Below, one piece after another: positions 17,975 to 39,334 of a stretch of DNA of 64,000 nucleotides. Position numbers and translations under genes: made by a program. The notes beneath the pieces are model-generated. The model searched no databases. It was not told where the DNA came from and saw nothing but the letters and a program-made list of their open reading frames with translations. This DNA is from an uncultured Bacteroidales bacterium. Its GTDB lineage: Bacteria; Bacteroidota; Bacteroidia; Bacteroidales; Paludibacteraceae. How positions within the stretch are numbered: position 1 is the first letter of the stretch; every line of letters begins with the position of its first letter. Location of the stretch: positions 124,001-188,000 of the forward strand of contig CADBWK010000001.1 of assembly GCA_902798385.1 (NCBI GenBank), written 5' to 3'.

Positions 17975-18562
17975 TTATCGAATTATTTTTGTCAATGTAA
18001 GGAATATGATGGTAAAATACTCACCAATCGTTTGGTGGTTAATCCATTTCATGTTGAGGGCGATCTTAGCCGGCATGATCTGCTCGATATAGGTTTTGTC
18101 CGGATCGGCAGATTGCGCTAACAAACGATTCTCGTCGATGTACTCGATGGACGCATGATCTGTGATGCCCGGTCGTACCGATAATACTTGCCGTTGTTCA
18201 TCGGTATAGAGATCGACGTACCGGCGTACTTCCGGACGCGGACCTACGAGCGACATGTCACCCACCAGCACGTTCCATAACTGCGGCAGTTCATCGAGTT
18301 TGTACTTCCTTATATAGTATCCTGCGCGCGTGACACGCGGGTCGCGATCGCCGATGGTGATGAGGCTCATCTTATCGGCTCCGACTCGCATAGAACGGAA
18401 CTTAAGCAAACCGAAGTCCTTCCCGTCCTTTCCTACGCGTTGCTGGCGATAAAAGACCGGTCCCGGGTTGTCGATGACGATCCACAATGCTACAATAAGA
18501 AAGAGCGGACTAAGGAACAGCAGCCCGAAGAAACTGAATAGGATGTCACACAAACGTATCAT
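17975..18562 (-). CDS. PglC-like initiating sugar phosphate transferase
   Basis: 195 aa. Transfers a sugar-1-phosphate from an NDP-sugar to the lipid carrier undecaprenyl phosphate, the first step of repeat-unit assembly. It is of the small monotopic type: one N-terminal re-entrant hydrophobic helix ([18 protein letters not shown]), then [23 protein letters not shown], the [10 protein letters not shown] motif and SLVGPRPE. It lacks the extra helices and the Rossmann domain of WcaJ. The ATGA overlap (18559-18562) couples it to the aminotransferase. Confidence 0.93.
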
Positions 18563-19767
18563 CTGTTTTTCAAAATTTCGGTGTATTGCTCTATGATGTA
18601 ATCGATCTCCTCATCCGTCAGACGCGTATGCAGCGGGAGGGTTATCTCATTCACGAAATGCGCGTAGGCATTCGGATAGTTCTTGATATCAAAGCCCAAA
18701 GCCTTGTAGGCCGTCATCATCGGAAGCGGTTTGTAATGAACATTGGTGGCTATACCGCGTTCTGCCATCTTCACGATGATCGCTTGCCGCTCTTCCAACG
18801 AGGCCTTCGGCACACGAGTCAGATAGAGGTGACCGGAGGAGACATGATCATCCGTATAGTGGGGAAGCACCTCTACACCCAGCGGTTTGAACGCTGCATC
18901 ATAACGCTCGATGATCTCTTTTCTACGTGCCAGCAGAGCAGGGTAGCGCTTCATTTGCACGAGACCTAAGGCCGCCATGATATCCGTCATGTTGCACTTG
19001 TACCACGCCCCTACGATATCGTACTCCCAAGCCCCGAGTTGGGTCTTGGCAAGTGCATCTTTGGACTGACCGTGCAACGAGAAGAGCTGGAGCTGATGAT
19101 ACAAAGCCTCGTTATCAATACCCGGGAAGGTACGCCATGTGAGGGCACCGCCTTCCGCCGTGGTGAAGTTCTTCACGGCATGGAAAGAGAAGGATGTGAA
19201 GTCCGCGATAGAACCCACCATCTTGCCCTGCCAGGAAGCACCGTAGGCGTGCGCCGCGTCCGCGCAGATAGCGATACGACCGATCGCCGTTTGCAACTCG
19301 TTCACCGGATGGAAGAGCGCTTTCTTACGCTCCACGATCTCAAAGAGACGCGTGTAGTCGCAGGGGATACCGGCCAAATCGACAGGAATGATGGCTTTCG
19401 TTCGCTCGTTGATAGCTGCTTCTACGGCATCATAGTTCATCTCAAGACAATCGTGTTGGCTGTCCACAAACACGATCTTGGCACCCACATGCGCCACCAC
19501 GGAAGCCGACGCCGTGTAGGTATAAGCTGGCACAATGACCTCGTCTCCTGCTCCGATCCCTAACAAACGCAGGGCCAGCTCCAGACAGGCTGTCGCGGAG
19601 TTGAGACACACGGCACGCTCTGTACCGACATAGGCAGCAATCTGGCGTTCCAGTTCTTTGGTGCGCGGACCGGTGGTGATCCAACCGGAGAGAATCGCTT
19701 CTCGTACTTCGTTGACTTCCGCCTCCGTCATGTCCGGCGGCGAGAAAGGAATATTAAATTTTTTCAT
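18559..19767 (-). CDS. DegT/DnrJ/EryC1/StrS-family PLP aminotransferase
   Basis: 402 aa. Makes amino sugars by transaminating a 4- or 3-keto-NDP-sugar. Seen: PAYTYTASASVV, the aspartate and histidine that hold PLP (ADAAHAYGA), and the Schiff-base lysine at about residue 199 in SFHAVKNFTTAEGG. It resembles PglE/WecE-type enzymes acting on UDP-4-keto sugars. Next to a PglC-like transferase it probably supplies the first sugar of the repeat unit, but no matching dehydratase or acetyltransferase is adjacent, so the substrate is open. Confidence 0.93.
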   Translation of the reverse strand: MKKFNIPFSPPDMTEAEVNEVREAILSGWITTGPRTKELERQIAAYVGTERAVCLNSATACLELALRLLGIGAGDEVIVPAYTYTASASVVAHVGAKIVFVDSQHDCLEMNYDAVEAAINERTKAIIPVDLAGIPCDYTRLFEIVERKKALFHPVNELQTAIGRIAICADAAHAYGASWQGKMVGSIADFTSFSFHAVKNFTTAEGGALTWRTFPGIDNEALYHQLQLFSLHGQSKDALAKTQLGAWEYDIVGAWYKCNMTDIMAALGLVQMKRYPALLARRKEIIERYDAAFKPLGVEVLPHYTDDHVSSGHLYLTRVPKASLEERQAIIVKMAERGIATNVHYKPLPMMTAYKALGFDIKNYPNAYAHFVNEITLPLHTRLTDEEIDYIIEQYTEILKNR

Positions 19768-22421: not shown

Positions 22422-23300
22422 TTATTCTTGCGGTAAGCGGATTTGCTCGCCGATGAGCAGGTCTGCCTGATATAGTTTGTCGGAGTCCAAACCGCCACCC
22501 GGAGTGAAGGTCAACTCCCCGAAAATTACTTTTCCTTGTTCGATATAAAAGTCAGCCCGTACGAAGGGGAACGGGGCAGAGAGTTTGCGAGCGCACTCCA
22601 TCATCTTGTTCCATCCGGCAGGGATAGCATACGTGAAGTCTTTGGGGGCTTCTATACCGTCCTTCGTCAACTCGCGTTGCAGATTACCTTTCGTGTCAAA
22701 ATAATAGAACTTGGGTTTTACATGCATGCCTCTGCCTACGCAAACCATTACGTAAAGGGGTTCTCCGTTGCAGCAGTAGATTTTATAATCTGCCGGAGCC
22801 AAACCGTCTTCCGTCTCAATGAATCTCTCGGCGAGGATCTTCTTCGGAGTCGCCGCGTACTGCATCTCGGAATGGAGTAGGTGACCGTTGGAACGCATCC
22901 ATCGGCACAAGAGTTTACGCGTAGCAGGGATGTCTAATTGCGACTTATCGGTCACTACCAGATTCAGGTGGTAGTAATAATTCGACTTGAGCACAAACTG
23001 ATTCGGTAACTGATCAAAATCAATCGCATCCGGATCAGTCCAGTATCCGTATAATTCATTGAGGATCTCGCCGCACCCCTGCTTCTGTACATACTCGCGC
23101 ACGGCGTACTTGTCCGCACATTGGGAGACGAGCGGATTGTTCAAATAGGTATTGAGTTTCAACCACTGGATCTTCTCGTTGGAGGTGCGCGGATTCTTCA
23201 GATCCCACCATCGGCCGAAATACCGGTACCACAATACTTGGGTATTCAGTTTCGGCGAAATACGTGTCAGCGTTTTTAATATAAAGTCCTTAATCCACAT
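22422..23300 (-). CDS. TupA-like ATP-grasp ligase
   Basis: 292 aa from the ATG at 23300 (TGATATG junction with the upstream gene; an upstream ATG would lie inside that gene). The pattern is that of the TupA-like ATP-grasp family: NPRTSNEKIQWLKLN, DKYAVREYV, LPNQFVLKSNYYYH, a core ADYKIYCCNGEP and the metal-binding VRADFYIEQGKVIFGELTF. TupA of alkaliphilic Bacillus is tied to joining glutamate to a glucuronate polymer. Here it may attach an amino acid to a uronic acid; the amino acid could come from the neighbouring opine-type enzyme (inference). Confidence 0.88.
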   Translation of the reverse strand: MWIKDFILKTLTRISPKLNTQVLWYRYFGRWWDLKNPRTSNEKIQWLKLNTYLNNPLVSQCADKYAVREYVQKQGCGEILNELYGYWTDPDAIDFDQLPNQFVLKSNYYYHLNLVVTDKSQLDIPATRKLLCRWMRSNGHLLHSEMQYAATPKKILAERFIETEDGLAPADYKIYCCNGEPLYVMVCVGRGMHVKPKFYYFDTKGNLQRELTKDGIEAPKDFTYAIPAGWNKMMECARKLSAPFPFVRADFYIEQGKVIFGELTFTPGGGLDSDKLYQADLLIGEQIRLPQE

Positions 23301-23301
23301 A

Positions 23302-24258
23302 TCAGTTCCTATGTTGAAAATCAATGATACGTTGGTCAATAATCTTGCCGTTCTCTATACATTTGGCCCGTTGCAATACCTCTGCCGGCTCGTCGCATAT
23401 CAGTCTGTCGCATAGCGGTGCAACCACTTCGCTGAGGAACATCGAGGTCGTTTTGAAGAACAGCGACGGCGTATGATCCACTACATAATGCCTTATTCCG
23501 TCCACTATATAGGTGGGATTCTCAATCGTTGTCGGCACACTGGTCTCTACAGCGCCGGCTCTGTCGCAACTGATGTCGATAATCATCGCCCCGTGTTTCA
23601 TGCGCTTCAGATCCTCACGGTAGATGATATGATCGCGGCGGCGCGTATCCCACAGGATCGCATTCACCACCACGTCATAACGGCCTAATTCCTTGCGGAA
23701 CAACTGCTCCGTATGCCGGTCATACACAATCACTTCTGCACCCATGTAGTTCAAGGTCTTGATAGCGCCGCGCGCGGTGTTGCCTCGTCCGAGTACGGCT
23801 ACCTTGGTGTCATAGGGGAAAACGCCGTGACATAGATAGGCGTGACTCACGGCTGCTTCTCCGGCGATCTCGTTGTTACGCCAGAACGAATGACGACCGT
23901 CTTCGAACATATCTTCCCAGGCATAGGCAGTGAGTTCGCTATGCAGGATTTTGTCGGTGATATCCCTATTTTGTACGGCATGGAGCCAACCGAACACCGT
24001 TTGCCCGTGGAGTTGCTCCAGATAATCGGCATCACCCACTTTGGGATCGCAAATAATATCGCATGTCAGCACTTGCTCACGGGAGCCCACATGCACACCC
24101 GCCGCACGGTAATCTTCATCGCTATAACCCAACACATCTCCGTAACCCGTTTCTACATAGAGCTGCTCCGGGTGCTTGATGAGGGCGATATGTTCCGGTA
24201 CTAATGCCCGACGGAACTCATGTTCTTTGTGCCCGATAGGAAATCCGATAGTTTTCAT
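23302..24258 (-). CDS. N5-(carboxyethyl)ornithine synthase-like enzyme (alanine dehydrogenase family)
   Basis: 318 aa. N-terminus KTIGFPIGHKEHEFRRALVP and the central Rossmann segment VAVLGRGNTARGAIKTLNYM place it in the AlaDH/transhydrogenase superfamily, closest in my memory to N5-(L-1-carboxyethyl)-L-ornithine synthase, which reductively joins pyruvate to the side-chain amine of ornithine (or lysine). I chose the ATG at 24258, one base after the upstream stop, because MKTIGFP is the family start. Within a glycan locus such an enzyme would supply an unusual carboxyethyl amino acid for decoration. It could also be another AlaDH-like reductase. Confidence 0.8.
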   Translation of the reverse strand: MKTIGFPIGHKEHEFRRALVPEHIALIKHPEQLYVETGYGDVLGYSDEDYRAAGVHVGSREQVLTCDIICDPKVGDADYLEQLHGQTVFGWLHAVQNRDITDKILHSELTAYAWEDMFEDGRHSFWRNNEIAGEAAVSHAYLCHGVFPYDTKVAVLGRGNTARGAIKTLNYMGAEVIVYDRHTEQLFRKELGRYDVVVNAILWDTRRRDHIIYREDLKRMKHGAMIIDISCDRAGAVETSVPTTIENPTYIVDGIRHYVVDHTPSLFFKTTSMFLSEVVAPLCDRLICDEPAEVLQRAKCIENGKIIDQRIIDFQHRN

Positions 24259-24259
24259 T

Positions 24260-25369
24260 TTATCCATAAACAACAGGGGTTGGATGGGTTTGTGTATAGT
24301 GTATTATATCTTGCAGATAGTCTTTGAAGATCGGTCCGTTGAAGATCTGATGATCATCTACATCCTGTGAATCCAGATTGATCTCGATGATACGCGGGTG
24401 CTCGTCGGCATCGATGGTGAAGTCCCAGGCAATAAAACCGAGCATCGGGAGTTTCTGATGCAGTGAGACAGCCACCTCCGTGATGTCTTTCCAGAAATCC
24501 AGTTTCTCGCCTTTGAGCAACAAGCCCGACGGAGCGTAGAAGTACTTCGTGTACAGGTCAGCGGCATATAGGCAGAACTCATTCAGCTGTCCGTCAGACG
24601 GTTTGATACCCACATAACCGTTGGCCGTCTTGGGATCCAGGTTAGCGGCTGTCTTAGCGGATGCATTATCATTGAAGGTTTGTCCGCCGCCCATACGCAT
24701 AAAGCCGCTGAGAACAGATACTTTGCCGTTCAAACACAGCGTGAAGCAGCGTACAGTATTGACGGTCTTGTCGCCGTTGTTAAAACGCGTGATACGTTTG
24801 CTGGGTTGAATCAGCTCCTGGCAGATGAAGAAATCTCCTTTCAACATCTCTGCGATATATGCCTCTTTGTCTTCGATCGTCTTCAGTTCTACCAGTTTGA
24901 CGCCTCTTCCTCCGCCGGTATGATCGGTCGGTTTATAGACGAAGGTGTCATGCTTAAGCAGCCGTTGAGTCGCTTCTTGCTCCGACAAGATACGATCGTC
25001 TTGATCATAGATGAAACCGTGGAACTTATTGATGATCGTTACCGGCAGGTATTGCTTGTCGATAAAGCGGTGTAGGGTAGCTTTGTTCTGGATAAACCGC
25101 AGCTCTTTAGGGTTCAAACTATACTCAAAAGTTTTCCATACATCGCGCGGCACGAAGTACTGATTGACGTAGCCGTGATAGAACTTATAGTACCGGAACC
25201 ACTGCCAGTCGTACGCCAGATGCAAAGGATCGTATTGCTTGCGGATAAGATCCTTCTCCTCTTTGGTCAGATCTGCCTGCGGCATGGTGGACAAGCGCTT
25301 CTTGAGTCCGCGTTTGATCAGCACCGATCGGAGGTAATAAAACGATTTTTTGAATAGCGACTTAAGCAT
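24260..25369 (-). CDS. Sugar-transfer-associated ATP-grasp protein
   Basis: 369 aa from the ATG at 25369, five bases after the flippase stop. Seen: KPTDHTGGGRGVKLVEL (glycine-rich ATP loop), NTVRCFTLCLNG, GGGQTFNDNASA, and the metal-binding end FIAWDFTIDADEHPRIIEINL. These match the ATP-grasp family found next to sugar transferases in polysaccharide loci. ATP-grasp enzymes form amide or ester bonds from a carboxylate via acyl phosphate. Directly upstream of the carboxyethylornithine synthase-like gene (1-base gap), so the two probably act in one step series. Confidence 0.88.
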   Translation of the reverse strand: MLKSLFKKSFYYLRSVLIKRGLKKRLSTMPQADLTKEEKDLIRKQYDPLHLAYDWQWFRYYKFYHGYVNQYFVPRDVWKTFEYSLNPKELRFIQNKATLHRFIDKQYLPVTIINKFHGFIYDQDDRILSEQEATQRLLKHDTFVYKPTDHTGGGRGVKLVELKTIEDKEAYIAEMLKGDFFICQELIQPSKRITRFNNGDKTVNTVRCFTLCLNGKVSVLSGFMRMGGGQTFNDNASAKTAANLDPKTANGYVGIKPSDGQLNEFCLYAADLYTKYFYAPSGLLLKGEKLDFWKDITEVAVSLHQKLPMLGFIAWDFTIDADEHPRIIEINLDSQDVDDHQIFNGPIFKDYLQDIIHYTQTHPTPVVYG

Positions 25370-25374
25370 ATATA

Positions 25375-26901
25375 TTATTTGTTTTTGCGTTGTTTGATTG
25401 TTTCCAATAATGTTTGTCGTTCCCATTTGGACGTAGCAAACAGGAGGATTGACAAGCCGGTGATGATGACCGCCACGATTCCTGTAAGGAAGAATCGGAA
25501 TGAATCATCGCCGCTATGTACGTAATGGGTCATCGCATAGCATACACCGGCGTTGACAGCCATCGGTATAAAGATCGGCAGGATCGCCGTTCGGATGAAC
25601 GGCATAACTTCGAGTTCGCCCACCAGATGCATGACGGGGATACGCAGTAAGGAGGATACCAGCTCAAATGTGATAAACGCCCATAATACGCTGACCAACG
25701 GCATGCCATAGTGCAGACAAACCCAACCGACCGGTAGTGCCAACAACTTGGAGGTGTTCACCGTGAGGTTCCATATGCGCAGTTTGCCGATGGCTTGATT
25801 AGCGGCTGTCAGACCGATGGTGAGCTGGTCGATGACTGAAGCGATCAACATAAAGGCACTGAAGACCACACTATATTCCGGCACTTCTCCCAACCATAAG
25901 GTCAGTATCGCAGGCAGTTCAAACACAATCGGAATAAGCACGATGCCTTGCAGCAGAACGCCGTATTTGCTGGCGTATGCCGCGAGAAGATACTCTTTTT
26001 TTCTATCTCCAGCCCCTTCGGCTTTCATGATCTGCGGACTCATCGCGTTGAGAATCGAGTAGGCGAGGAAGTTCGTAGCACCTGTCACTTGCAGTGCGAT
26101 ACCGTAGGCGGCATTGACGATGACACTGTAGAAACGGTTGAAGAGCACGGCCAAGCCCTGACTGCGAATGATGATACAGCCGGAGGCATAGATGTTCCAT
26201 GCCGCAAAGCGGAAGATCTGCTTGATGAACGACCAATCGATCTCCTGTATCCGCGGAACATGACACTCGTCATAGTGGCGCATCGCGTAGAACAGGTACG
26301 CGCATAGGTTGAAGAGCGAAATACCGATCAGCAAAACGGAATAGAGAATCAGTTTATCGCCCAACGCAACGGTCAGGAAGATGGCAATCAGCAGCTTGAA
26401 CACGCCGTCCAGCACCTCCACCACCGAGGTATAGACGATATTCTCCCGCGCGATGAACAGCGCCCGGATAGGAGCCGTCACAAAAGTGAGGAGCAACACG
26501 ATACCGGCAGAGAAATACACCCATATGCCGGCGGTGATACGCTCCGGCTCTATATTGAGCACATGGTAGAGAACGGGATGATAAACGGCAGCCAAAATCA
26601 GTAACAAAGCACCGCCTATCATCAGGTGCAGAAGCATGCAGTTAGCATACGTAGCAGATAACTTATCGCTTTGCTTAGCCCCGTGATAGATAGACAGAAA
26701 TCGCTGCGGAACACCGGCCAACGCGTTGGTGATAAAGGACAGCATAGAGATCACACCGCCTACCAGCGAGAAGATGCCGAAATCGCTTTGCCCCAGCGCC
26801 GCCAGAATAAGGCGGGTGGAGTAGAGCGACAACACCACGTTGATGAACGTGCGGGTGTACTGTGCTATCGTGTTTACTACTATGCGTTGCGAAGCTGTCA
26901 T
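25375..26901 (-). CDS. Wzx-like polysaccharide flippase (first copy)
   Basis: 508 aa, about 12-14 hydrophobic segments, of the MOP/PST flippase superfamily that moves lipid-linked repeat units across the inner membrane. Typical start RIVVNTIAQYTRTFINVVLSL (split here over the first helix) and the conserved YSTRLILAALGQSDFGIF segment at the end of TM1. A second, distinct flippase lies at 33276. The two are alike in the first 60 residues (both have YxSRxVLxxLGxxDYGIF-type words) but differ elsewhere. Confidence 0.9.
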   Translation of the reverse strand: MTASQRIVVNTIAQYTRTFINVVLSLYSTRLILAALGQSDFGIFSLVGGVISMLSFITNALAGVPQRFLSIYHGAKQSDKLSATYANCMLLHLMIGGALLLILAAVYHPVLYHVLNIEPERITAGIWVYFSAGIVLLLTFVTAPIRALFIARENIVYTSVVEVLDGVFKLLIAIFLTVALGDKLILYSVLLIGISLFNLCAYLFYAMRHYDECHVPRIQEIDWSFIKQIFRFAAWNIYASGCIIIRSQGLAVLFNRFYSVIVNAAYGIALQVTGATNFLAYSILNAMSPQIMKAEGAGDRKKEYLLAAYASKYGVLLQGIVLIPIVFELPAILTLWLGEVPEYSVVFSAFMLIASVIDQLTIGLTAANQAIGKLRIWNLTVNTSKLLALPVGWVCLHYGMPLVSVLWAFITFELVSSLLRIPVMHLVGELEVMPFIRTAILPIFIPMAVNAGVCYAMTHYVHSGDDSFRFFLTGIVAVIITGLSILLFATSKWERQTLLETIKQRKNK

Positions 26902-28809: not shown

Positions 28810-29939
28810 TGTCCTATTATTTTCAATATCTTTTTCGTTCGTTCTTCGAGGCGCAGATTGTTGGCTTTAGTGAGTGCGCCTTGTGCCAAACGTCGGCTTA
28901 GTTCTTGGTCGCTCTTCAAGCGCAAGATCGCGTCGGCTATCTCATGCACGTCAGACGGATTTACGCGTATGCTGTTCTTCTCATCCAAGATGTCGTCGTT
29001 AAACGGCAGGTCAGAAGAGATAATCGGCAGGCCGCAAGCCATCGATTCGATGACAGAGTTCGGACAGCCTTCTGCTACGCTGGGCAGTACAAAGACATCC
29101 GCTGCATTGAGATAATGTACGATTTCGTTATGCGGCAGTTGGCCTTTGAAGGCGATATGTTCGTAGTTCGGCTCGTCTTTGCAGTTATCCATCGGGCTGC
29201 CTATATAGATCGCTTGGATATGCGGGTCGTTCAGTTGCTTCAACGCGGCATCTACCCGGAACACTCCTTTGCGGTCATTGAACCGTCCGCAGAAAGCCAC
29301 CACGAAATCATCGTCTTCAATGTCCAATTTCTTGCGCATGGCAGAACCGTCTTCCGGATAGAACTCCTGCGGATTATACGCATTCGGCAGCACATGACAT
29401 TTCTTTTCCTCTGCTAAGCCATAAGCCACGCTCTCCTGTTTGTTCTTCGTGCTCACGCAAACGACAGCTTTCGTATGCTCCTTGAGCCAGGCACGCTTTG
29501 CGTGGCTGATCTGCTCCATAGGAATGATATCTTCACCGGTCGCTACGATCAGCGGGAGCTGCTTTTGGCTTACATAAGGCATCGCCATGACGGCATTCAA
29601 CCAGAAATGCGCATACACCACGTCCGGAGTCTTCAACCTGCGTGCCGTCAGTGTCGTCACGATTCGGTTGCACCAGCGAGTCCATCCTCCGAAGCGTCCG
29701 TCACCTGCTGTAATGGAGTAGGGACGGTAGATATGAATCGTCTTGCCCTCCACCTCTTGCGTGAAATGACGCGGAGCCAACGGCACATGGCGCAACCAGT
29801 GCTTGGTGAGCGACTGCGGGGCAATCACCGACACACAATTCCCTTGTCGCGTCATCTCTTCCGCGATATTGGCGATGAAAGCCGAGTAGGGAAGACCCGG
29901 ACTCGGATATCCGTCTGCTATGATGAGAATATGTGTCAT
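28806..29939 (-). CDS. Glycosyltransferase family 4
   Basis: 377 aa from the ATG at 29939 (ATGA overlap with the ATP-grasp gene). Starts THILIIADGYPSPGLPYSAF, carries VAFCGRFNDRKGVFRV, the VFVLPSVAEGCPNSVIESMA donor-site motif, and NSIRVNPSDVHEIADAI. A GT-B retaining enzyme similar to exopolysaccharide transferases. Confidence 0.9.
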   Translation of the reverse strand: MTHILIIADGYPSPGLPYSAFIANIAEEMTRQGNCVSVIAPQSLTKHWLRHVPLAPRHFTQEVEGKTIHIYRPYSITAGDGRFGGWTRWCNRIVTTLTARRLKTPDVVYAHFWLNAVMAMPYVSQKQLPLIVATGEDIIPMEQISHAKRAWLKEHTKAVVCVSTKNKQESVAYGLAEEKKCHVLPNAYNPQEFYPEDGSAMRKKLDIEDDDFVVAFCGRFNDRKGVFRVDAALKQLNDPHIQAIYIGSPMDNCKDEPNYEHIAFKGQLPHNEIVHYLNAADVFVLPSVAEGCPNSVIESMACGLPIISSDLPFNDDILDEKNSIRVNPSDVHEIADAILRLKSDQELSRRLAQGALTKANNLRLEERTKKILKIIGQ

Positions 29940-30841
29940 TTGTTCATCCATGCTCCAATTTTATTGTCCCATTCTTTAGGTTCAAATGGAACAAACCCGC
30001 TCCAATGATAGAATGTAAGTTCTCCAAAATACACCTGTCCGTTGATATCATAAAGGTCCACACGCACATGAGGAATGCCTGCAGAGAGTTTGCGTGCCAA
30101 TTCTACCATCGTGTCAAATCCTTTTGGCTTTGCCGGTATGTGAGATGCATGCTCATGACCATTTGTGAATGGTAATAAGTTAAAATCCATATCGAAGAAA
30201 TCAAATTTCGTTTCTTCGTTCGGATTCTCGCGGTCGGTTGCAATAAACAGCATCTTGGGTTCTCCATTAAAGCAGAAGAACTTGTAATCTTTCAATTCAT
30301 AGCCGCTTTCGTCCACCATGTATTGCTCTACTATTATTCGGTGTTTCACATTTTTGTATGGCCATTCACGAGATACAGCATAATAATTACGTTTAAGTCC
30401 GGCGGATAGTCTTTTGATAGCTGTTGGGATATCCAATGTGTTTTTGTCTTTGCATATTACAATACCACCACTATCATGTGTGACTTTTGCTACGAACTGA
30501 TTAGGTAATTTATCCCAAGGAACATCTTCTGGTTTGTCCCAAACACCGATGGTTGGAATAATATGTTCTTTGCCAATGCGCTCTGTAACATACTCTTTTG
30601 CTTCTGCTTTATCTACCATCCGTGTATAGTCTGATTTACGGTCATGCAGTTTCAGCCATTGCAATTTTTCATTGTATGTTTTCGGATTGTTAAAATCCAT
30701 CCAATAACCCATTGTCAGCCGGAATTTGACAGCAAGGAACAATTGATCCGGTACCATGGGAGCAATTATATTCCATCCGCGGAGCAGTATTCGCTCTGGG
30801 TGGTGTATCAAATATGTAAAGAATTTATTAACAATGTTCAT
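29936..30841 (-). CDS. TupA-like ATP-grasp ligase (second copy)
   Basis: 301 aa, same family as 22422-23300: NPKTYNEKLQWLKLHDRK, DKAEAKEYV, LPNQFVAKVTHDSGG, LKDYKFFCFNGEPKML and VRVDLYDINGQVYFGELTF are shared in the same order. The N-terminal 30 residues differ. Overlaps the upstream GT4 by 14 bases and the downstream GT4 by 4. Marks the edge of the A+T-rich part of the block (about 29.9-35.4 kb). Two copies imply two different linkages or acceptors (inference). Confidence 0.88.
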   Translation of the reverse strand: MNIVNKFFTYLIHHPERILLRGWNIIAPMVPDQLFLAVKFRLTMGYWMDFNNPKTYNEKLQWLKLHDRKSDYTRMVDKAEAKEYVTERIGKEHIIPTIGVWDKPEDVPWDKLPNQFVAKVTHDSGGIVICKDKNTLDIPTAIKRLSAGLKRNYYAVSREWPYKNVKHRIIVEQYMVDESGYELKDYKFFCFNGEPKMLFIATDRENPNEETKFDFFDMDFNLLPFTNGHEHASHIPAKPKGFDTMVELARKLSAGIPHVRVDLYDINGQVYFGELTFYHWSGFVPFEPKEWDNKIGAWMNK

Positions 30842-31886
30842 ATGGTAAAAGTGATTTAATTAAAGAATCCCATGAAGAAATAAATTTTTCTTGTGAGAAC
30901 TCATTCATTCTATTACGAATATTATAAGAACACTTCTGTTGGTATTCTGGAGAATTTATCATCTCGTTCAATTTTTGGGCAAACATATCATCGTCGTTGT
31001 CAGATACAATAATGCCTTCTTCTGGAGAAACGTAAATTTCAGAAATAATTCCTCCCAGTTCATACGAAATACATGCACATCCTTGCGATGCTGCTTCCAA
31101 CAAACACATAGGAAAACCTTCGACTCGACTTGGTAATGCAAAAATTGCGGCACGTTGATATAAATCCTGCATATTTTTAATTTGCCCAGCATATAGAATG
31201 GATGATAATGGAGGTACTCCATCTATTCCAGCTATAACCAGTTTCCATTCTGGATTGGAAGATGAAATGGATTCCCAGATTCGTATCATACGGTCAAATC
31301 CCTTAATTTGCCAAGCATCTTTTCGACCTACGCATAAAACTATTTTTTCTCTTTTAATATTTCCATCATATACAGGAAAGGAAATAGGATTATATATAAC
31401 AACCTTGTTGGGAATTTTATTCTTTAATATTTGTTCGTCAGTATGGCTTAATATACTAACACAGTCTGCCCATTTATATGCATGCCATCTAATCCAATGT
31501 GTAAACCAATGTTGACGGTGGCTATATGAAGTGTGGTCAGCCGCGATTACATGCACAGACTTACAAAGGCTTGCCATACGCGCACATAAATACGGCTCCG
31601 GTTCAACGCCGATGATGATATCCGGGTGTGTATAATTAATTATTTGGTGATATTTCCGAATCCGTTCACTCATTTGAACTATTCCTGCTAAATGGCTTTT
31701 CCCCTTACGTGCTACGTGATTATCAATAATAGTGATATTATCTCCACAACCATAAAGCATCGGGCGTTGACGGTCAAATGCTAACACTACATCATAACCT
31801 TTTGATGATAGCCCATTGCACATAATAGAGGTCACTCTTGCGGCACCGCCGCTGGCCATATGATCGATAAAAACTAAGATTTTCAT
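30828..31886 (-). CDS. Glycosyltransferase family 4
   Basis: 352 aa. Starts MKILVFIDHMASGGAARVTS, a typical GT4 opening, with VLCVGRKDAWQIKGFDRMIR, FALPSRVEGFPMCLLEAASQ (donor-site Glu pair) and a C-terminal region with DNDDDMFAQKLNEM. Clearly richer in A+T than the GT genes at 26.9-29.9 kb, suggesting a separate origin. Overlaps Wzy by four bases. Confidence 0.9.
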   Translation of the reverse strand: MKILVFIDHMASGGAARVTSIMCNGLSSKGYDVVLAFDRQRPMLYGCGDNITIIDNHVARKGKSHLAGIVQMSERIRKYHQIINYTHPDIIIGVEPEPYLCARMASLCKSVHVIAADHTSYSHRQHWFTHWIRWHAYKWADCVSILSHTDEQILKNKIPNKVVIYNPISFPVYDGNIKREKIVLCVGRKDAWQIKGFDRMIRIWESISSSNPEWKLVIAGIDGVPPLSSILYAGQIKNMQDLYQRAAIFALPSRVEGFPMCLLEAASQGCACISYELGGIISEIYVSPEEGIIVSDNDDDMFAQKLNEMINSPEYQQKCSYNIRNRMNEFSQEKFISSWDSLIKSLLPYEHC

Positions 31887-33298
31887 TGTTTTGTGTAGCG
31901 TTTAGCAATTGCATGGATAATATAGAAAACCAAAAGCGTAGAGATACTAAGAAATACGTTAAGGAACGCGCTGGCATGTCCACGAGGCGCATAAATGATA
32001 TCCGGTATCATAATCAATCCGAAAGCGCAGGGCCATAATCCTTTGCGTACCCAATGGTAGAATCGCGCAAAAATAACACCGTACATCATGTTCCAAAGCA
32101 GCAGACCGGTATAACCGAAATCATGCCATACTTCGGCGATATATGATGTACCCAGACCGACACCGCTTAAGAAACTCCTATGCGCCTGCAGGTAGGTGAT
32201 GCTGTTGGCCAACGAGTGACCGTACAAAGCCATCTCTTCCGTTTGCGAACGGTATTCAACGGCGGTGCCCATGAGTTGGAAGACAAAATTCTTATTGAAG
32301 TTGTCGATGATCTGACCGAAAGAGAAAATACGGCCGTCATCCAGCAGGTCTCGAAAATCGTATGTGAGGCCGATAACTTGAGCCGAAACACCTTGTTGAT
32401 AGAAGAAATTGACGAACATGTCTAATATGCCTGCTTCCTCCATCTCTTTGTCGCCACGGATAAAATCAATCATAAACATTCCTGCTAAAAGGAAAGGAAT
32501 CATGCTAACCATAGCAATCATGGCTTTGCGCGAAAGCCAAGGTTCACCCGGTGTAATGAAATTTCGCACGCTGTAATAGAAAAGCAAGAATACCAAAGTC
32601 AGCATGAAAGCTGTACGACTACCAGTAGAAAGGGAAAACAATGCTAAAATCAGATTCAGCACAATAGGCAGACGTGCTTCCTGTTTAGACGGGAAGGTTG
32701 CCAAAAACAGGCAGATGAGCGGGGTATATAATGCTGATAATTTATGTATGAAAGCGGGTAATTGACTTTCAAAATCTGCGTATAACCCGAAATAGCCGTT
32801 ATTAAAGACGAAAATACTTTTTTCTAAGACGATGGCGACGAAGAAAAACGAACATCCGTATGAAAGTATCTTGCTGATATGCCGGATACTCAGTACATAT
32901 GGCGTATTATTATCATAGATTTGGAGTTTCTCATCCTCTATCTTAGGCATCATAACGAACCCCAAATAGGAACCGAAGATACTAATCGCCAGCGTGGTAT
33001 AGATAAACCGCAATGTCTCCATATCAAACATACGAATCGTGCCATCCACATCTGCTGCTATATATCCTGTTTGGAAGAAATCCGGAAGAATGAGTCGCGT
33101 CATCAGAAAAGTGAAGAGTGTAGTTTGGAAAAGTAAAAGAAGAAGCCGTTCTTTTACCCGCAGCAAGCAGAAACATACTACCACAATCCACATCATTAAT
33201 GTGATAGCCGCTTGCCATTCTGCCACTATGAAGAAGAGCACCAGCAAAGCAAGCAGAATAGTGCTTGTTCCAAATTTATCTCGTGCGATACTCAACAT
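31883..33298 (-). CDS. wzy: Wzy-type oligosaccharide repeat-unit polymerase
   Basis: 471 aa with about 10-12 predicted membrane helices and a long soluble loop near residues 290-360 (about FDRDLLDDGR... to YGHSLANSITYLQ), as in O-antigen polymerases. Other signs are a SLSTGSRTAFMLTLVFLLF helix and the late DFGYTGLLLWNMMYGVIFA segment. It joins repeat units on the periplasmic side. Identification rests on topology and context, since Wzy proteins share little sequence. Overlaps the flippase by 23 bases. Confidence 0.82.
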   Translation of the reverse strand: MLSIARDKFGTSTILLALLVLFFIVAEWQAAITLMMWIVVVCFCLLRVKERLLLLLFQTTLFTFLMTRLILPDFFQTGYIAADVDGTIRMFDMETLRFIYTTLAISIFGSYLGFVMMPKIEDEKLQIYDNNTPYVLSIRHISKILSYGCSFFFVAIVLEKSIFVFNNGYFGLYADFESQLPAFIHKLSALYTPLICLFLATFPSKQEARLPIVLNLILALFSLSTGSRTAFMLTLVFLLFYYSVRNFITPGEPWLSRKAMIAMVSMIPFLLAGMFMIDFIRGDKEMEEAGILDMFVNFFYQQGVSAQVIGLTYDFRDLLDDGRIFSFGQIIDNFNKNFVFQLMGTAVEYRSQTEEMALYGHSLANSITYLQAHRSFLSGVGLGTSYIAEVWHDFGYTGLLLWNMMYGVIFARFYHWVRKGLWPCAFGLIMIPDIIYAPRGHASAFLNVFLSISTLLVFYIIHAIAKRYTKQ

Positions 33299-34802
33299 GC
33301 CGATTCGGAATTAATGATAATATTTGCTTTCGTTCTTCTCTCTTTAGGATACACCACCACCATATAGCGGAGCAAATAACCATCGAAGCAAGACTGATGA
33401 CTATTTGTTGCCAAAGAGTAGAAGTTAGTGTGTTAAAATAGAACAGTCCTCCGGCGCATATCAGACAGAGACATGCCGGTAATAATATATTATATGTATA
33501 TGCTGTGCTGTTGAAACCAGCTACTTTCCTTGCCAATATCAAGATAACGAACATGTTCACCAGTTCCATAAAGATACAGCATACAAAAATGCTAGCATAT
33601 GGTGCTCCGGCCTTCAACACAAAATAACCCAGCACTAAAGGAAATGCCAGGATGATTCCTTCTGCTATCTGGTAATATTTTAAATTCCCTTTGGCTTTAA
33701 AGATGGTGTCTATCGGGCCGTGGATGGAACGGATGAGCGAGATACAAAGCGTGAGTTGGAGAAAGACAACCGAGTATTCGGGGACTTCACCCAGCCATAA
33801 CTGCAAGAGCCATGGCGTAAGATAGATGAGGGGAATCGTCAGCATCAGTTGGACATAGAATAATATCTTCGAGGAGATAAAAATCGCTTTCTGAAAATCA
33901 TCATATTTCCCTCCTGCATAAGCTTTTATACTATATGGCGTCATCACAGTGTTTACGTTTGTCAAAAACTGTTTGGTCAGTTCACTCACTTGAAAAGCTA
34001 TTCCTCGGGCCGCATTTACCACAGTACCGCCAAATACATTGAGAATCATATTCATGCCATTTTGCGTAATTGTGTAGGCTGTGTTACCCAAGAAATTCCA
34101 ACCGGCAAACTGTGTCATTTGCTTTATATATTTTTTGTCCCATAGCCCTCGTAGTTTGATTTCCTCAAAATGGCTTTTACAATATATATAATTAATCAGA
34201 TATATGATAATGCTTACCCCTAATAGCAGATATCCGTAGAAGGATAGTTTGTCGAAGGGAGCGTGGCTTAATAGAAAAACAATGCCTAATTTCATTAAAC
34301 TCTCAACGATTGCTATAATGGCATAAAAATTCATATGTTCATGAGCAATGATTTCCGCATCGAAAACGGACGTAATGATACTGATTGCAGCTATGCCTAC
34401 AGAGCATTGGAATACGATGAATGCCGGTTCTAACCTTTCAGGAGCAATATTGATTTTATATGCAAAGAACCATATTCCTAGAATTTCGACCAAGCATATA
34501 AATATAATAGCAATGATGAGGTTGATGTATATACTCAAGTTGAATACAAGTTGTAAATTATATGCGTTGCCTTGGCCCATTTCATAGTTCAGGTATCGTT
34601 GCGTAGATGATGAAAATACAGCCCGTAATGAATTGAACATTGCGACAATACTTCCAACCAGAGTGAATATTCCATAATCATCCACTCCTAATTGCTGTAG
34701 TACAACTCGTGAGGTATAAAAGGAAACGACTATCAGGACAAACATGCGTATATACATGAATGCCGTATTTTTAGCTAATCGTTTTCCTGTCGTTCCACTC
34801 AT
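33276..34802 (-). CDS. wzx: Wzx-like polysaccharide flippase (second copy)
   Basis: 508 aa, about 12-14 membrane helices, MOP superfamily: KRLAKNTAFMYIRMFVLIVV, SRVVLQQLGVDDYGIFTLVG, FSSSTQRYLNYEMGQGN. Adjacent to Wzy and in the A+T-rich part of the locus, so this is the likelier partner of the polymerase; the copy at 25375 may serve another glycan or be a relic of a merged locus. Four-base overlap with the acetyltransferase. Confidence 0.9.
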   Translation of the reverse strand: MSGTTGKRLAKNTAFMYIRMFVLIVVSFYTSRVVLQQLGVDDYGIFTLVGSIVAMFNSLRAVFSSSTQRYLNYEMGQGNAYNLQLVFNLSIYINLIIAIIFICLVEILGIWFFAYKINIAPERLEPAFIVFQCSVGIAAISIITSVFDAEIIAHEHMNFYAIIAIVESLMKLGIVFLLSHAPFDKLSFYGYLLLGVSIIIYLINYIYCKSHFEEIKLRGLWDKKYIKQMTQFAGWNFLGNTAYTITQNGMNMILNVFGGTVVNAARGIAFQVSELTKQFLTNVNTVMTPYSIKAYAGGKYDDFQKAIFISSKILFYVQLMLTIPLIYLTPWLLQLWLGEVPEYSVVFLQLTLCISLIRSIHGPIDTIFKAKGNLKYYQIAEGIILAFPLVLGYFVLKAGAPYASIFVCCIFMELVNMFVILILARKVAGFNSTAYTYNILLPACLCLICAGGLFYFNTLTSTLWQQIVISLASMVICSAIWWWCILKREERKQILSLIPNRHVEYRTR

Positions 34803-35383
34803 TGTGCTATAGGATATGTTTTTATTATTTTTGCCGGATTGCCGCCCACTGCCACATTGTCTGAGATGTTTTTATAGACCACTGTGTTGGGTGCAATACG
34901 TACGTTTTTGCCAATATGTATGTCGCCGTATATCTTACTACCCATCGCAAGTTCCACATGGTCTTCTATTGTGGGACGTGCTTCAGGTATGTCTTTATTG
35001 CCAATGACAACACCGGTTGATACGGTGCAATAGTTGCCCATCTTGCGGCAATTAATTATAACTCCTCCTGAAAAATGAGCAATCTTTATACCATAACCTA
35101 CCATGTTTGCACCGATGTGAATGCCATATCGATGTCCCATGCGGCTGTGGCGTACATTCCAGTATTTGCGGACCAATTCATGGATGATGTTGGTTGAGGT
35201 ATTTGTCCAATATTCCAAGTGGCGTAATGTGTGCAAATATTTGAGGACATGTGCTTGCTCGTCACCAATAGCCAGTTTGATAATATATTGGATATATCCG
35301 GAGATTGTATAGCGTGTCGGCATTCCGGCACGTATGGCATCTTCCTGCAGGTAAAAATTTAAATCCTTCTTACTCTTAATCAT
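34799..35383 (-). CDS. Serine acetyltransferase-like hexapeptide O-acetyltransferase
   Basis: 194 aa. The C-terminal two thirds is a left-handed beta helix of hexapeptide repeats (YGIHIGANMVGYGIKIAHF, NCRKMGNYCTVSTGVVIGN, HIGKNVRIAPNTVVYKNI) ending in GGNPAKIIK, the SAT-like closing motif. The helical N-terminal part is shorter than in CysE. In a glycan locus it probably O-acetylates the repeat unit from acetyl-CoA (inference). Three bases downstream of the nucleotidyltransferase. Confidence 0.88.
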   Translation of the reverse strand: MIKSKKDLNFYLQEDAIRAGMPTRYTISGYIQYIIKLAIGDEQAHVLKYLHTLRHLEYWTNTSTNIIHELVRKYWNVRHSRMGHRYGIHIGANMVGYGIKIAHFSGGVIINCRKMGNYCTVSTGVVIGNKDIPEARPTIEDHVELAMGSKIYGDIHIGKNVRIAPNTVVYKNISDNVAVGGNPAKIIKTYPIAQ

Positions 35384-35386
35384 TGT

Positions 35387-36121
35387 TTATTTCCCGTATT
35401 TCTCGCAGGCCTCGTAATAGGTGTCGAGGCTGCCTATATCCAATCGTCCGCCGTTCATCGGCCAGGCGTGCATCGTGGTGTGCTCTACCAGATAATGCGC
35501 CAGATTACCAGGGGCATCGTTCCCGCAACCGTTCTCCAGACAATGACGAATCAGGTCAAAATCTTTCTGCATATACAGATAGAACGGCGGCACAGCATGA
35601 TGCGTCTTCGGAACTTGCGGTTTCTCCGCCATTTCCAGCACTTTGTTGTTCTCGTCCAGCACCACCACACCCGTGCGCTGTAGTTTCTCTATCGACGGCT
35701 GTTCGTGGTACATGATACAACTGGTGCCATTTTCTTTTGCAAAATCCACGAAATCTTGGAAATGGAAGAAGAGGAGGTTGTCGGCTGCCACCACCAAGAT
35801 GTCTTCTTTCAGCGCCATGTGCTCGATAGCGAACAGCAGGTCGCCTACCGCACCCAGACGCGTCTCGTTGCTACTCGTGCCGTCGTCCAAGATCGTCACG
35901 GGCTTGGTATAGTGTTGCTCCTTAGCCCATTTCTCAAAGATCGGCGCAAAACGATGGTTCGTGATGATGATATGCTCGTTGATAGCCGCGATCGGATCGA
36001 TATCGTCCAATAGGCGACCTAAAATAGTGTTATCGCCTATCTTCAACAGCGGTTTGGGGAAGTTCTTCGTCAATTCGCCCAAACGTGTTGCGTATCCTGC
36101 TGCTATCACGATCGTTTTCAT
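35387..36121 (-). CDS. Sugar-1-phosphate nucleotidyltransferase
   Basis: 244 aa from the ATG at 36121, which overlaps the kinase stop (ATGA). N-terminal pyrophosphorylase signature as AAGYATRLGELTKNFPKPLL, with VVAADNLLFF holding the metal-binding Asp and a FYLYMQKDFDL segment. It would convert a sugar-1-phosphate to an NDP-sugar. The translational coupling to the galacturonokinase-like gene suggests that its substrate is the product of that kinase (inference). It lacks the C-terminal hexapeptide domain of GlmU-type enzymes. Confidence 0.87.
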   Translation of the reverse strand: MKTIVIAAGYATRLGELTKNFPKPLLKIGDNTILGRLLDDIDPIAAINEHIIITNHRFAPIFEKWAKEQHYTKPVTILDDGTSSNETRLGAVGDLLFAIEHMALKEDILVVAADNLLFFHFQDFVDFAKENGTSCIMYHEQPSIEKLQRTGVVVLDENNKVLEMAEKPQVPKTHHAVPPFYLYMQKDFDLIRHCLENGCGNDAPGNLAHYLVEHTTMHAWPMNGGRLDIGSLDTYYEACEKYGK

Positions 36122-37266
36122 GCTTCCACAAAGCGGGCACCGTCGGTCGAGTGTACCCAATAGATACCAAATGTCTTCTTGTATTCCGGATATTGCGCCA
36201 GATACTCTCGGGTGATGGATTCTTCCACTTCTTTCTTATACGCCGGATCCACCAGCGCGATCACCGCACCTTTGAAACCCGCACCGCTGAACCGACCTCC
36301 ATACACTCCTTCAAGGTTCTTGAGGATGGTGTAGATGGCGATCAACTCCGGACTGCCGCATTCATAGTTATGGATCGAACTCTCACAACTCTGCTTGATC
36401 AGTTGACCGAACAATTCCATGTTTCCGCTTTCCCACGCCGTCACACCTTTGCGTACACGACGGTATTCGGAGTAGAAATGTTCCGCCCTGCGGGCAAAGC
36501 GAGCCGGCATGCGGTCTTTGGTCTCTTCATACATCTCCAGCGGCACATCACGCAGAAAGGTTTGATCCAGCGGTCGGATTGGTTGCTCTTTGTAGGCTTG
36601 CATACACCATGCGGCAGTTTTGCACTCACTCACACGCAGGTTATAGTCGCTGTTAACCAGACTGCGTGTCAAGCCCGAGAAGATGATCGCAATCTCGTAT
36701 TTACCCAAGTCCTCGCCGGGTTCAATCAACCGGTACTGCTCCGTGGCGGTGTCCAAAAAGAGCAGTTTGCCTTGTTCGCCCAACGCGATACAAGCCTGAT
36801 CCAAGATACCGTTATTCAATCCGATATATTCGCGCTCGGCTTCCGAAGCGATCTTGATCACCTCCATCTTTGTCAGAGTAATCGCATTCGCTTTGGCAAA
36901 AGCCATCACGTACGCAATCAAAACGGCGGCACTGCTGCTCAAGCCTCCGATAGGCAATGAACCCGTGATCTCGCCCTCGATGCCGTGTTGGAGCACAAAG
37001 CGTTTGCTCAATGCATACTTGGCGCCGCGCACATAGTCGCCCCAGTTACCCTCCTTTACACGCGTCTTGTCGTCGATACGTATATTCACCTCTCCGGTGA
37101 AGGAATGGCTCGTAAGACGAACACTCCCGTCCTCGGTAATGTTAAACCATAGATCCACACCTTTGTCGATGGCAAAACCCGATACCAGACCGTGCTGGTG
37201 ATCGACGTGCGCACCCAGAGGACAAACGCGGTAGGGCGCAAAAATATGATAGGCGTAATTTTTCAT
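36118..37266 (-). CDS. GHMP sugar kinase, galacturonokinase-like
   Basis: 382 aa. Galactokinase-family motifs: APYRVCPLGAHVDHQHG (motif 1), SLPIGGLSSSAAV (ATP loop, motif 2) and GGRFSGAGFKGAVIALVD (motif 3). The PLGAHVDHQ form is closer, from memory, to plant galacturonokinase (PYRICPLGAHIDHQGG) than to bacterial GalK (GEHTDYN-type). It would make a uronic acid or galactose 1-phosphate by salvage. One-base overlap with the UDP-sugar dehydrogenase and ATGA overlap with the nucleotidyltransferase. Confidence 0.85.
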   Translation of the reverse strand: MKNYAYHIFAPYRVCPLGAHVDHQHGLVSGFAIDKGVDLWFNITEDGSVRLTSHSFTGEVNIRIDDKTRVKEGNWGDYVRGAKYALSKRFVLQHGIEGEITGSLPIGGLSSSAAVLIAYVMAFAKANAITLTKMEVIKIASEAEREYIGLNNGILDQACIALGEQGKLLFLDTATEQYRLIEPGEDLGKYEIAIIFSGLTRSLVNSDYNLRVSECKTAAWCMQAYKEQPIRPLDQTFLRDVPLEMYEETKDRMPARFARRAEHFYSEYRRVRKGVTAWESGNMELFGQLIKQSCESSIHNYECGSPELIAIYTILKNLEGVYGGRFSGAGFKGAVIALVDPAYKKEVEESITREYLAQYPEYKKTFGIYWVHSTDGARFVEA

Positions 37267-38504
37267 TAATCTCTTCGGAATATGTCGCGTGTATATACCT
37301 TTTCTTGCACGTCATCCAGCACCGCATCGTAGCGGTTGGCGATGATGGCTTGGCTGCGAAGTTTGAATTGTGCCAAATCATTCACCACTTCGCTACCAAA
37401 GAACGTCGTGCCGTTCTCCAGCGTCGGCTCGTAGATGATGACCTGTGCACCCTTGGCTTTGACGCGTTTCATGATGCCTTGGATAGAAGATTGACGGAAA
37501 TTATCGCTGTTCGATTTCATCGTCAGACGGTACACTCCGATCGTGCAGTGCTTCTCCTCGCTCGCGTCGAAATCGCCCTTATGGTAGTAGTCGTAATATC
37601 CGGCTTTAGCCAGTACGCGGTCGGCGATGAAGTCCTTTCTCGTGCGGTTACTCTCCACGATCGCCTCGATCAGGTTCTCCGGCACGTCCTCGTAGTTAGC
37701 CAGCAACTGCTTCGTGTCCTTCGGCAGACAGTAGCCGCCATAACCGAACGAAGGATTGTTATAGTGCGTGCCGATACGCGGATCGAGACAGACGCCGTCG
37801 ATGATCGATTGCGTATCCAGACCCTTCATCTCCGCGTAAGTGTCGAGTTCGTTGAAATAGCTGACACGCAGCGCCAGATAGGTATTGGCGAACAACTTCA
37901 CTGCTTCCGCTTCCGTCAAACCCATGATACGTACTTCCACATCTTGTTTGATGGCACCTTCTTTGAGCAGTTTTGCAAAGGTATCAGCTGCCTGATACAT
38001 AGCAGTATTGTCTAGGATAGTACCGACAATGATACGACTTGGGTAGAGGTTATCATAGAGTGCCTTGCTCTCGCGCAGGAACTCCGGCGAGAAGAGGATG
38101 TTGTTGCAGCTGTATTTCTCGCGAACGGACTTCGTGTATCCGACAGGGATGGTCGATTTGATGACCATGATCGCGTTCGGGTTGACGCGCAGCACCGTCT
38201 CGATAACGTTCTCTACGGCACTCGTGTCGAAGTAATTGAGCCGACTGTCATAGTTCGTCGGCGCGGCAATCACCACATACTCCGCATCCTTATACGCCGC
38301 CTCGGCATCCAAGGTAGCCGTTAAATGGAGATTCTTCTCAGTGAGATATCGCTCGATATACTCGTCCTGAATAGGGGATTTGCGATGATTGATCGCCTCC
38401 ACCTTCTCCGGCACGATATCCACCGCCGTTACCTCGTTGTGTTGGGCGAGTAGGGTAGCTATACTAAGCCCCACATACCCCGTTCCTGCAACTGCAATTT
38501 TCAT
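37266..38504 (-). CDS. ugd: UDP-glucose 6-dehydrogenase
   Basis: 412 aa, oxidises UDP-glucose to UDP-glucuronate with two NAD+. N-terminal Rossmann GTGYVGLS (residues 7-14), GxVPTNYD-like [32 protein letters not shown], catalytic Cys at about 259 in YGGYCLPKD, and a C-terminal NDP-sugar domain. Full length and of the short (Ugd/HasB) class. Provides the uronic acid for the glycan. Confidence 0.95.
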
Positions 38505-39261: not shown

Positions 39262-39303
39262 TTTTGATATGTTGTTTTTATTCGTTTTCTTACAAAAAGC
39301 CTG

Positions 39304-39334
39304 CAAAATTACAACTTTTTTTTCATATACGCAA
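39304..39334 (-). promoter_or_regulatory. Promoter of the 24-kb glycan block
   Basis: Minus strand: -33 box TTGCGTATATG starting at 39334 and -7 box TAATTTTG (39311-39304), 23 bases apart. Predicted transcript start near 39297, about 36 nt before the ATG at 39261. No other clear promoter was found on this strand down to 14.7 kb. No UpxY-like antiterminator gene precedes the block. Confidence 0.8.

Follow-up and report, generated by a model that had tools for sequence, protein, structure and literature searches.

When capsules and O-antigens carry amino-acid amides, this affects their charge and how the immune system recognises them. The N5-(carboxyethyl)ornithine synthase (CEOS) of Lactococcus lactis is a characterised enzyme that acts on free amino acids and has ornithine as a substrate. 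Substituents of this kind are described in the available part of PMC10609480: the O-antigen of Providencia rustigianii O14 carries Nepsilon-[(S)-1-carboxyethyl]-lysine on galacturonic acid, linked via Nalpha according to a cited title, that of Providencia alcalifaciens O35 carries alanopine on Qui4N, and Proteus mirabilis O27 bears lysine and alanine amides. According to the available part of PMC11800379, Campylobacter Cj1438 ends in a TupA-like domain that amidates glucuronic acid at its C6 carboxylate. PMC5560731, on the Proteus O13 cluster, has no mention of ornithine, alanine, lysine or ATP-grasp in its main text. Here, we analysed a glycan locus in a 64,000-nucleotide stretch of DNA from an uncultured Bacteroidales bacterium (G000:C1:124001-188000, hereafter the window; its genome is a metagenome-assembled genome (MAG) of 1.92 Mb that is 74% complete). 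In this locus, a CEOS-like dehydrogenase with the working name gCEOS stands between two candidate amide ligases.

The locus lies on the minus strand, is of the Wzx/Wzy type and runs from 39306 down to 17975. It encodes Wzy, two flippase-like proteins, seven GT2/GT4 glycosyltransferases, a DegT aminotransferase, an initiating transferase and a full-length nucleotide-sugar dehydrogenase (Table 1). In its middle, the genes for a sugar-transfer-associated ATP-grasp (ATPgrasp_ST), gCEOS and a TupA-like ATP-grasp (TupA1) are transcribed in this order as a tight array. Homology with relatives points to starts at 25369, at 24258 or 24267, and at 23300, so that the three genes would abut within about 10 bases. 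An earlier note on the window had described these nearly overlapping genes and a second TupA-like copy (TupA2), and all four are present on the minus strand where it placed them.

Judging from this gene content, we think it fairly probable that the product of the locus is a surface glycan of the Wzx/Wzy type, bearing an opine-type amino acid that is made by gCEOS and amide-linked by an ATP-grasp. gCEOS would join pyruvate reductively to a basic amino acid at its side-chain amine; in the window's lineage this amino acid is most likely L-lysine and less likely ornithine. The product would be N6-(1-carboxyethyl)lysine or N5-(1-carboxyethyl)ornithine. An adjacent ATP-grasp (TupA1 and/or ATPgrasp_ST) would activate a glycan carboxylate as an acyl phosphate, most plausibly that of a uronic acid derived from UDP-glucuronate, and the amide would be formed with the alpha-amine of the carboxyethyl amino acid before export. 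The reaction, substrate, acceptor, order of steps and division of labour between the ligases are all read from gene context. What we observe is the presence of the genes, the family membership of the ligases, conserved residues, a conserved pairing and, in a few related loci, genes for amino acid supply.

The pairing of gCEOS with amide ligases was followed through 33 gCEOS loci, namely the window, 23 contig loci from a peptide-pattern search and nine from other genomes. As the patterns came from the window protein, the sample is biased towards its closer kin, and with the close pairs L019/L020, L027/L030 and L032/L035 the loci are not all independent. Repeats of loci under other identifiers (L001-L004, L040-L042 and L056-L068) and the alanine dehydrogenase or PNT-like L005-L012 were left uncounted; L037-L039 and L050-L055 are reference sequences. 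Counted with profiles partly built from the same loci, 20 of the 33 have an ATP-grasp gene immediately next to gCEOS and in the same orientation. With PaaK-like adenylating enzymes included, a ligase adjoins gCEOS in 23/33 and lies at most three genes away in 29/33. A shuffle test on the loci then available found the ATP-grasp adjacent in all 18 loci that had one within 10 kb, where random placement within the locus gave a mean of 3.6 and a maximum of 10 in 20,000 shuffles. The pairing of gCEOS and ATP-grasp is not due to chance. The co-occurrence of the synthase with ATPgrasp_ST, which the earlier note thought worth following into other polysaccharide loci, does extend to them (nine of 33 within three genes), but TupA is the more usual partner, being the immediate neighbour of gCEOS in 17/33.

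Paired loci include Flavobacteria (L018, from Vaginella massiliensis Marseille-P2517T, and L022), Rikenellaceae (L023, L025), Clostridia, Bacilli and Fibrobacterota, and the place beside gCEOS is taken variously by TupA, ATPgrasp_ST or RimK-like proteins. On a tree of 36 TupAs, the label 'beside CEOS' must have changed at least four times, by gain or loss. Together with the presence of ATPgrasp_ST and RimK-like proteins in the same place, this means that the partners are not one inherited pair. PaaK-like proteins are so named because one member (L016) matches phenylacetate-CoA ligase structures at E 2e-25, as well as a profile; Pfam gave at best AMP-binding matches under cut-off. We see about an even chance that these loci are versions of a mix-and-match cassette spread across phyla, in which an opine synthase (gCEOS, Lactococcus-type CEOS or a diverged E. 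coli type) is combined with an interchangeable amide ligase (TupA, ATPgrasp_ST, RimK-like, another ATP-grasp or PaaK-like) and optional precursor genes to decorate surface glycans.

The diverged CEOS adjoins an ATP-grasp-like gene in all three E. coli loci examined, two of which are the same plasmid-borne locus, and the pair was matched in 5/5,426 E. coli genomes. This partner is named ATP-grasp in one RefSeq record, and two homologues give weak ATP-grasp matches. The same ATP-grasp-like family also adjoins the Lactococcus-type CEOS in L080-L082. On the E. coli plasmids (L036, L044), the diverged CEOS lies within a glycan gene set flanked by insertion sequence (IS) elements, on the chromosome (L043) it lies amid IS elements and gene fragments, and the ES7 plasmid copy is near IS26 and a TEM-1 gene. 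An E. coli O-antigen of known structure was considered as a bridge to chemistry; three of the five matches were examined, and none is an O-antigen locus tied to a structure.

Supply genes embedded in related loci bear on the identity of the amino acid. The closest relative, L015, is from the window's genus (its genome is read as G809), and its gCEOS is 82% identical to that of the window. Both loci have a pair of Ugd genes at the head, a Wzx-ATPgrasp_ST-gCEOS-TupA core and a DegT-transferase end. In L015, the order on one strand is Ugd2, Ugd1, lysC, lysA, Wzx, ATPgrasp_ST, gCEOS, TupA, and neighbouring genes between Ugd1 and TupA are spaced by -8 to 16 bp. Here lysC encodes aspartokinase and lysA diaminopimelate decarboxylase (412.9 bits, cut-off 297.9). 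Because this nearest relative has lysC-lysA in the operon, lysine is preferred over ornithine for the window. In L071, of the same genus (G814), lysC and lysA lie directly 3' of gCEOS. Among the 12 gCEOS genomes of the genus, lysA was found only in these two, one copy each. Just 39/178 genomes of the genus have it above cut-off, so that lysine auxotrophy may be common in the genus, or the MAGs may be incomplete. As a control, we inspected lysA in 20 of the 37 other lysA-bearing genomes of the genus, in stretches of 7 to 13 kb, some clipped by contig ends. CEOS, ATP-grasp, PaaK or Ugd matches were found around none of the 20, and glycosyltransferase matches around one. The difference between 2/2 and 0/20 gives p = 0.004 in Fisher's exact test, a test conceived after both cases were known.

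Arginase, which yields ornithine, is the next gene after the Lactococcus-type CEOS in all three loci of this type in the window's genus (L048, L049 and L075; PF00491 at E 7e-50 and 2e-52 for two of them). A PaaK-like gene lies upstream, directly in L048 and L049 and five genes off in L075. In L070, a gCEOS locus, the second gene downstream of gCEOS encodes an arginase and the intervening one a HipA-like protein. All four arginases score 184 to 201 bits with TIGR01229, under its cut-off of 227.6 and far above agmatinase. In G023, which has the arginase version, lysA is on another contig, and in L024 an arginase-family gene lies farther off, on the opposite strand.

gCEOS itself is encoded by a 323-amino-acid open reading frame (ORF) and matches PF05222 and PF01262, both above cut-off. 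It fails the alanine dehydrogenase equivalog model TIGR00518 with 106.4 bits (cut-off 391.85), where a Segatella alanine dehydrogenase scores 506 bits and a Vescimonas protein annotated as alanine dehydrogenase 357.9 bits. The motif PSL(F/I)Y(K/R)xxS and a short form of about 310-320 amino acids are common to gCEOS and annotated CEOS and are not found in alanine dehydrogenases. A tree of 47 proteins has a branch with 100/100 support that separates gCEOS, the Lactococcus-type CEOS and the diverged E. coli/Streptomyces type from alanine dehydrogenases and PNT-like proteins. On the gCEOS side, 26 of the 27 gCEOS rows cluster (94/95, unstarred); the remaining row, the acidobacterial L034, joins the E. 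coli type with weak support (85/68). Long branches meet in this tree, as the program warned, which makes it weak support for gCEOS activity. An alignment of 25 gCEOS sequences, the window's included, has R18, K75, H95, E117 and D234 invariant (numbered from base 24264); these align with what we take to be the substrate-binding and catalytic residues of alanine dehydrogenase. W116, N130, N131, D263 and H264 are also invariant.

A number of observations weigh against the proposed decoration. Four of the 33 loci (L019, L028, L034, L046) have no ligase within three genes; L019 lies at a contig edge, the neighbours of L028 do not, by eye, resemble glycan genes, L034 has a CapA-like gene adjoining gCEOS on the opposite strand, and in L046 (G156) three ATPgrasp_ST genes are found some 10 kb upstream of gCEOS on the same contig, outside the three-gene count. 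The PaaK-like counts are raw frequencies, taken in loci with CEOS, and the E. coli-type ATP-grasp has no Pfam match at E 0.001. Supply genes are scarce. lysA or arginase occurs on the same strand in only three of the 33 gCEOS loci and neither gene lies near gCEOS in the window, which like the rest of the other 30 loci has no supply genes. Among the Lactococcus-type loci, arginase is found in 3/6; the remaining three, from another family of the order, have none within 11 kb and have an ATP-grasp-like gene directly downstream of CEOS. On the same strand and no more than 11 kb away, a nucleotide-sugar dehydrogenase was present in just 10/33 gCEOS loci, and that of the window, some 13 kb from gCEOS, is not among them. 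Finally, gCEOS falls outside the Lactococcus-type clade (six rows in a clade of their own, 100/100) and is 31-34% identical to Lactococcus-type CEOS and 29-34% to alanine dehydrogenases, so that its activity is not readable from sequence.

These points trim the route proposed in the earlier note. Its central idea, that a dehydrogenase makes an opine which an ATP-grasp then ligates, appears sound in view of the pairing in 20/33 loci, the varied ligase partners and the embedded supply genes. The route can no longer be called complete, as the window locus has no lysine or ornithine supply genes, and ornithine gives way to lysine as the substrate indicated by the nearest relative. Of the span that the note had assigned to uronate synthesis (38506-36118), the nucleotide-sugar dehydrogenase is full-length, but the neighbouring GHMP kinase is not uronate-specific. 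A uronate acceptor is plausible, and it is the weakest link of the proposal.

One alternative concerns the acceptor. gCEOS could make the opine, and the ATP-grasp could activate the carboxylate of this amino acid and join it to an amino sugar, as in the alanopine-Qui4N of P. alcalifaciens O35 (PMC10609480, available part). The DegT aminotransferase of the window, the DegT-like matches in L013, L015, L018, L021 and L032, the scarcity of nucleotide-sugar dehydrogenases and the PaaK-like ligases, which usually activate free acids, would all suit such a linkage. However, the sole TupA-like domain reported as tested uses a uronate carboxylate (PMC11800379, available part), and the known carboxyethyl-lysine is joined via its alpha-amine to galacturonic acid (PMC10609480, available part). 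We regard this alternative as improbable.

A somewhat slimmer chance attaches to gCEOS being a divergent alanine dehydrogenase, with the two ATP-grasps attaching plain alanine and plain lysine to uronates, much like the lysine and alanine amides of P. mirabilis O27 (PMC10609480, available part). The shared superfamily, the conserved set of presumed catalytic residues, the two ligases of the window and the lysine genes of its relatives would fit this. The TIGR00518 score, the 100/100 branch and the motif and short form shared with annotated CEOS argue against it, as do the many gCEOS loci with a single ligase; moreover, alanine is a common metabolite for which a dedicated gene should be needless. 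Plain alanine dehydrogenase had been considered as the leading identity of gCEOS and was set aside on the model score and the tree, which leaves it as a rival only. The least likely course is a reversed order, with lysine or ornithine put on the glycan by an ATP-grasp at the outset and its free side-chain amine carboxyethylated there by gCEOS. This would need the same genes, give the same product and perhaps employ the extra invariant residues W116, N130, N131, D263 and H264, but sits poorly with the action of the Lactococcus enzyme on free amino acids.

Coming back to the opine amide as the preferred product, the ligases may differ in what they install. Among 18 TupAs of gCEOS loci, 17 carry a tail motif (P, then D five residues later), compared with 3/17 controls, as counted by eye; the exception is L029, and the set includes the L023 TupA, which lies two genes off gCEOS. 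TupA1 has the motif and TupA2 lacks it. In the tree of 36 TupAs, TupA2 branches with TupAs that do not adjoin gCEOS, and it may therefore install a different amide from TupA1. Nine aligned ATPgrasp_ST sequences, the window's included, have K96, K146, N204, T205, R207, D316, E329 and N331 invariant, of which K96, K146, R207, D316, E329 and N331 are candidate ATP/metal residues. Sequence search gave no convincing relative of known structure for the window ATPgrasp_ST.

We also looked for hidden ATP-grasp arrays near gCEOS in L013, L014 and L016. Their genomes hold 5, 9 and 5 ATPgrasp_ST matches, some weak, on contigs other than that of gCEOS, and these were not counted. Arrays of seven (G723 C101:14826-27813) and five (G722 C20:73287-88448) ATPgrasp_ST genes, 13-15 kb long, likewise lie away from the gCEOS contig. 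In G156, a third AlaDH/PNT-type dehydrogenase, of 399 amino acids (L076 2765-3964, on C57), is found directly 3' of three ATPgrasp_ST, about 10 kb from gCEOS; it scores 41 bits with the alanine dehydrogenase model and is possibly another opine-type synthase. ATPgrasp_ST frames near CEOS are split over two ORFs in L045 (8593-9727), L070 (12599-13716) and L075 (10628-11735), for which decay, phase variation and assembly error are all possible. A CapA/PGA_cap-like gene adjoins CEOS on the same strand in 3/33 gCEOS loci and 2/6 Lactococcus-type loci (L021, L022, L033, L081, L082), besides the opposite-strand case of L034. Loci with CEOS and PaaK-like genes also contain FemAB-like acyltransferases (L047 12255-13352, L049 5458-6708, L075 5576-6583), which hint at an additional amino-acid transfer step.

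The gCEOS and TupA families are rare in the order. At E 1e-60, gCEOS was found in 3/393 genomes of the order, the window's included, and in 1/296 genomes of a phylum sample, that one being the window's own. Within the window's genus, 15/178 genomes match at E 1e-50, which we read as 12 gCEOS (E 1e-128 or better) and three Lactococcus-type proteins (E about 1e-53 to 1e-55). Among 149 genomes of the order, TupA is above cut-off in eight, the window's included, and ATPgrasp_ST in 18, ten of them with partial or weak matches. The window genome has one gCEOS, one ATPgrasp_ST and two TupA matches, all within this locus.

Table 1. Genes of the window's glycan locus, and arginase genes beside Lactococcus-type CEOS in other loci of the same genus (positions in the named locus).
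Feature	Position	Strand	Basis and remarks
ATPgrasp_ST, candidate amide ligase	24260..25369	-	PF14397 88.3 bits, cut-off 31.4; start 25369 likely, inside ORF 24260-25426
gCEOS, AlaDH/PNT superfamily dehydrogenase	23302..24273	-	PF05222 and PF01262; start 24258 or 24267 likely
TupA-like ATP-grasp 1 (TupA1), candidate amide ligase	22422..23300	-	PF14305 126.4 bits, cut-off 25; likely ATG 23300 inside ORF 22422-23339
TupA-like ATP-grasp 2 (TupA2), six genes upstream of gCEOS	29936..30841	-	PF14305 238.2 bits, cut-off 25
UDP-glucose 6-dehydrogenase-like enzyme, full length, candidate uronate source	37266..38504	-	TIGR03026 309.5 bits, cut-off 189.8; all three UDPG_MGDP_dh domains
Short nucleotide-sugar dehydrogenase-like protein without C-terminal UDP-binding domain	38506..39306	-	domain search; counterpart in L015
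Galactokinase-like GHMP kinase, not uronate-specific	36118..37266	-	domain/model search
Sugar nucleotidyltransferase	35387..36160	-	PF00483
Hexapeptide acyltransferase	34799..35383	-	PF00132; EpsC/CysE-like, under their cut-offs
Flippase-like membrane protein (MatE-like, Wzx 2)	33276..34802	-	PF01554 24.3 bits, slightly below cut-off 24.9
O-antigen polymerase Wzy	31883..33298	-	PF14296 317.7 bits; TIGR04370 above cut-off
GT4 glycosyltransferases	30828-31886, 28806-29951, 27727-28809	-	TupA2 between first two
GT2 glycosyltransferase	26906-27763	-	Pfam domain
508-amino-acid protein read as flippase (Wzx 1)	25375..26901	-	position and L015 homologue (7386-8906); no Pfam match at E 0.001
Three GT2 glycosyltransferases	21549-22418, 20764-21552, 19769-20899	-	Pfam domain
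DegT-family aminotransferase (PseC/ArnB-like), predicted sugar amination	18559..19767	-	PF01041 317.7 bits; PseC 296.4 bits, under cut-off 423.5
Initiating sugar-phosphate transferase (WcaJ/EPS type, short)	17975..18562	-	best model TIGR03025 204 bits, under its cut-off
Arginase, 3' of Lactococcus-type CEOS	L048 3252-4104
Arginase, 3' of Lactococcus-type CEOS	L049 8607-9491
Arginase, 3' of Lactococcus-type CEOS	L075 8647-9528

If the cassette reading is true, lysC-lysA would mark carboxyethyl-lysine and arginase carboxyethyl-ornithine, the latter a glycan substituent of which we found no description, and the gene set would be a genetic basis for the carboxyethyl-lysine known from Providencia. 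The gene signature could then predict the substituent and sometimes, via an embedded lysA or arginase, its amino acid, which would make part of the glycan chemistry of uncultured gut bacteria readable from their genomes. In the open-licence papers searched, among the matches listed and as far as their available parts go, genes for opine-type amides are not assigned, those for the O14 decoration included. Within the same scope, no paper joins a CEOS-like gene and ATP-grasp ligases in a glycan locus, although bracketed names may escape phrase searches.

Compared with the CEOS of L. lactis, gCEOS has the same AlaDH/PNT two-domain architecture, length and motif and falls on the same side of the 100/100 branch. 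It differs in being 31% identical to the annotated L. cremoris CEOS (L037), in lying outside its clade and in its setting, as the lactococcal gene is not among glycan genes in the 4.7 kb examined. The window shares with Campylobacter jejuni a TupA-like ATP-grasp in a capsule locus, where Cj1438 amidates a uronate; as far as the available account goes, Cj1438 is fused to a glycosyltransferase and uses a small amino alcohol as its amine (serinol in HS:19). The window TupA, unlike Cj1438, stands alone and is paired with an opine synthase-like gene. Ethanolamine may also serve as the amine of Cj1438. The predicted product would be the decoration of the P. rustigianii O14 O-antigen or its ornithine analogue, although O14 is known, in the part of the source available, as chemistry and from a different phylum. 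The same source gives P. alcalifaciens O35 as a further bacterial glycan with an opine-type amino acid, but one in which an amino sugar is joined to the carboxyl of the opine. That ATP-grasp enzymes amidate surface glycans was already known, and what this locus and its relatives add is a dedicated opine synthase-like gene, accompanied in a few relatives by genes for lysine or ornithine supply.

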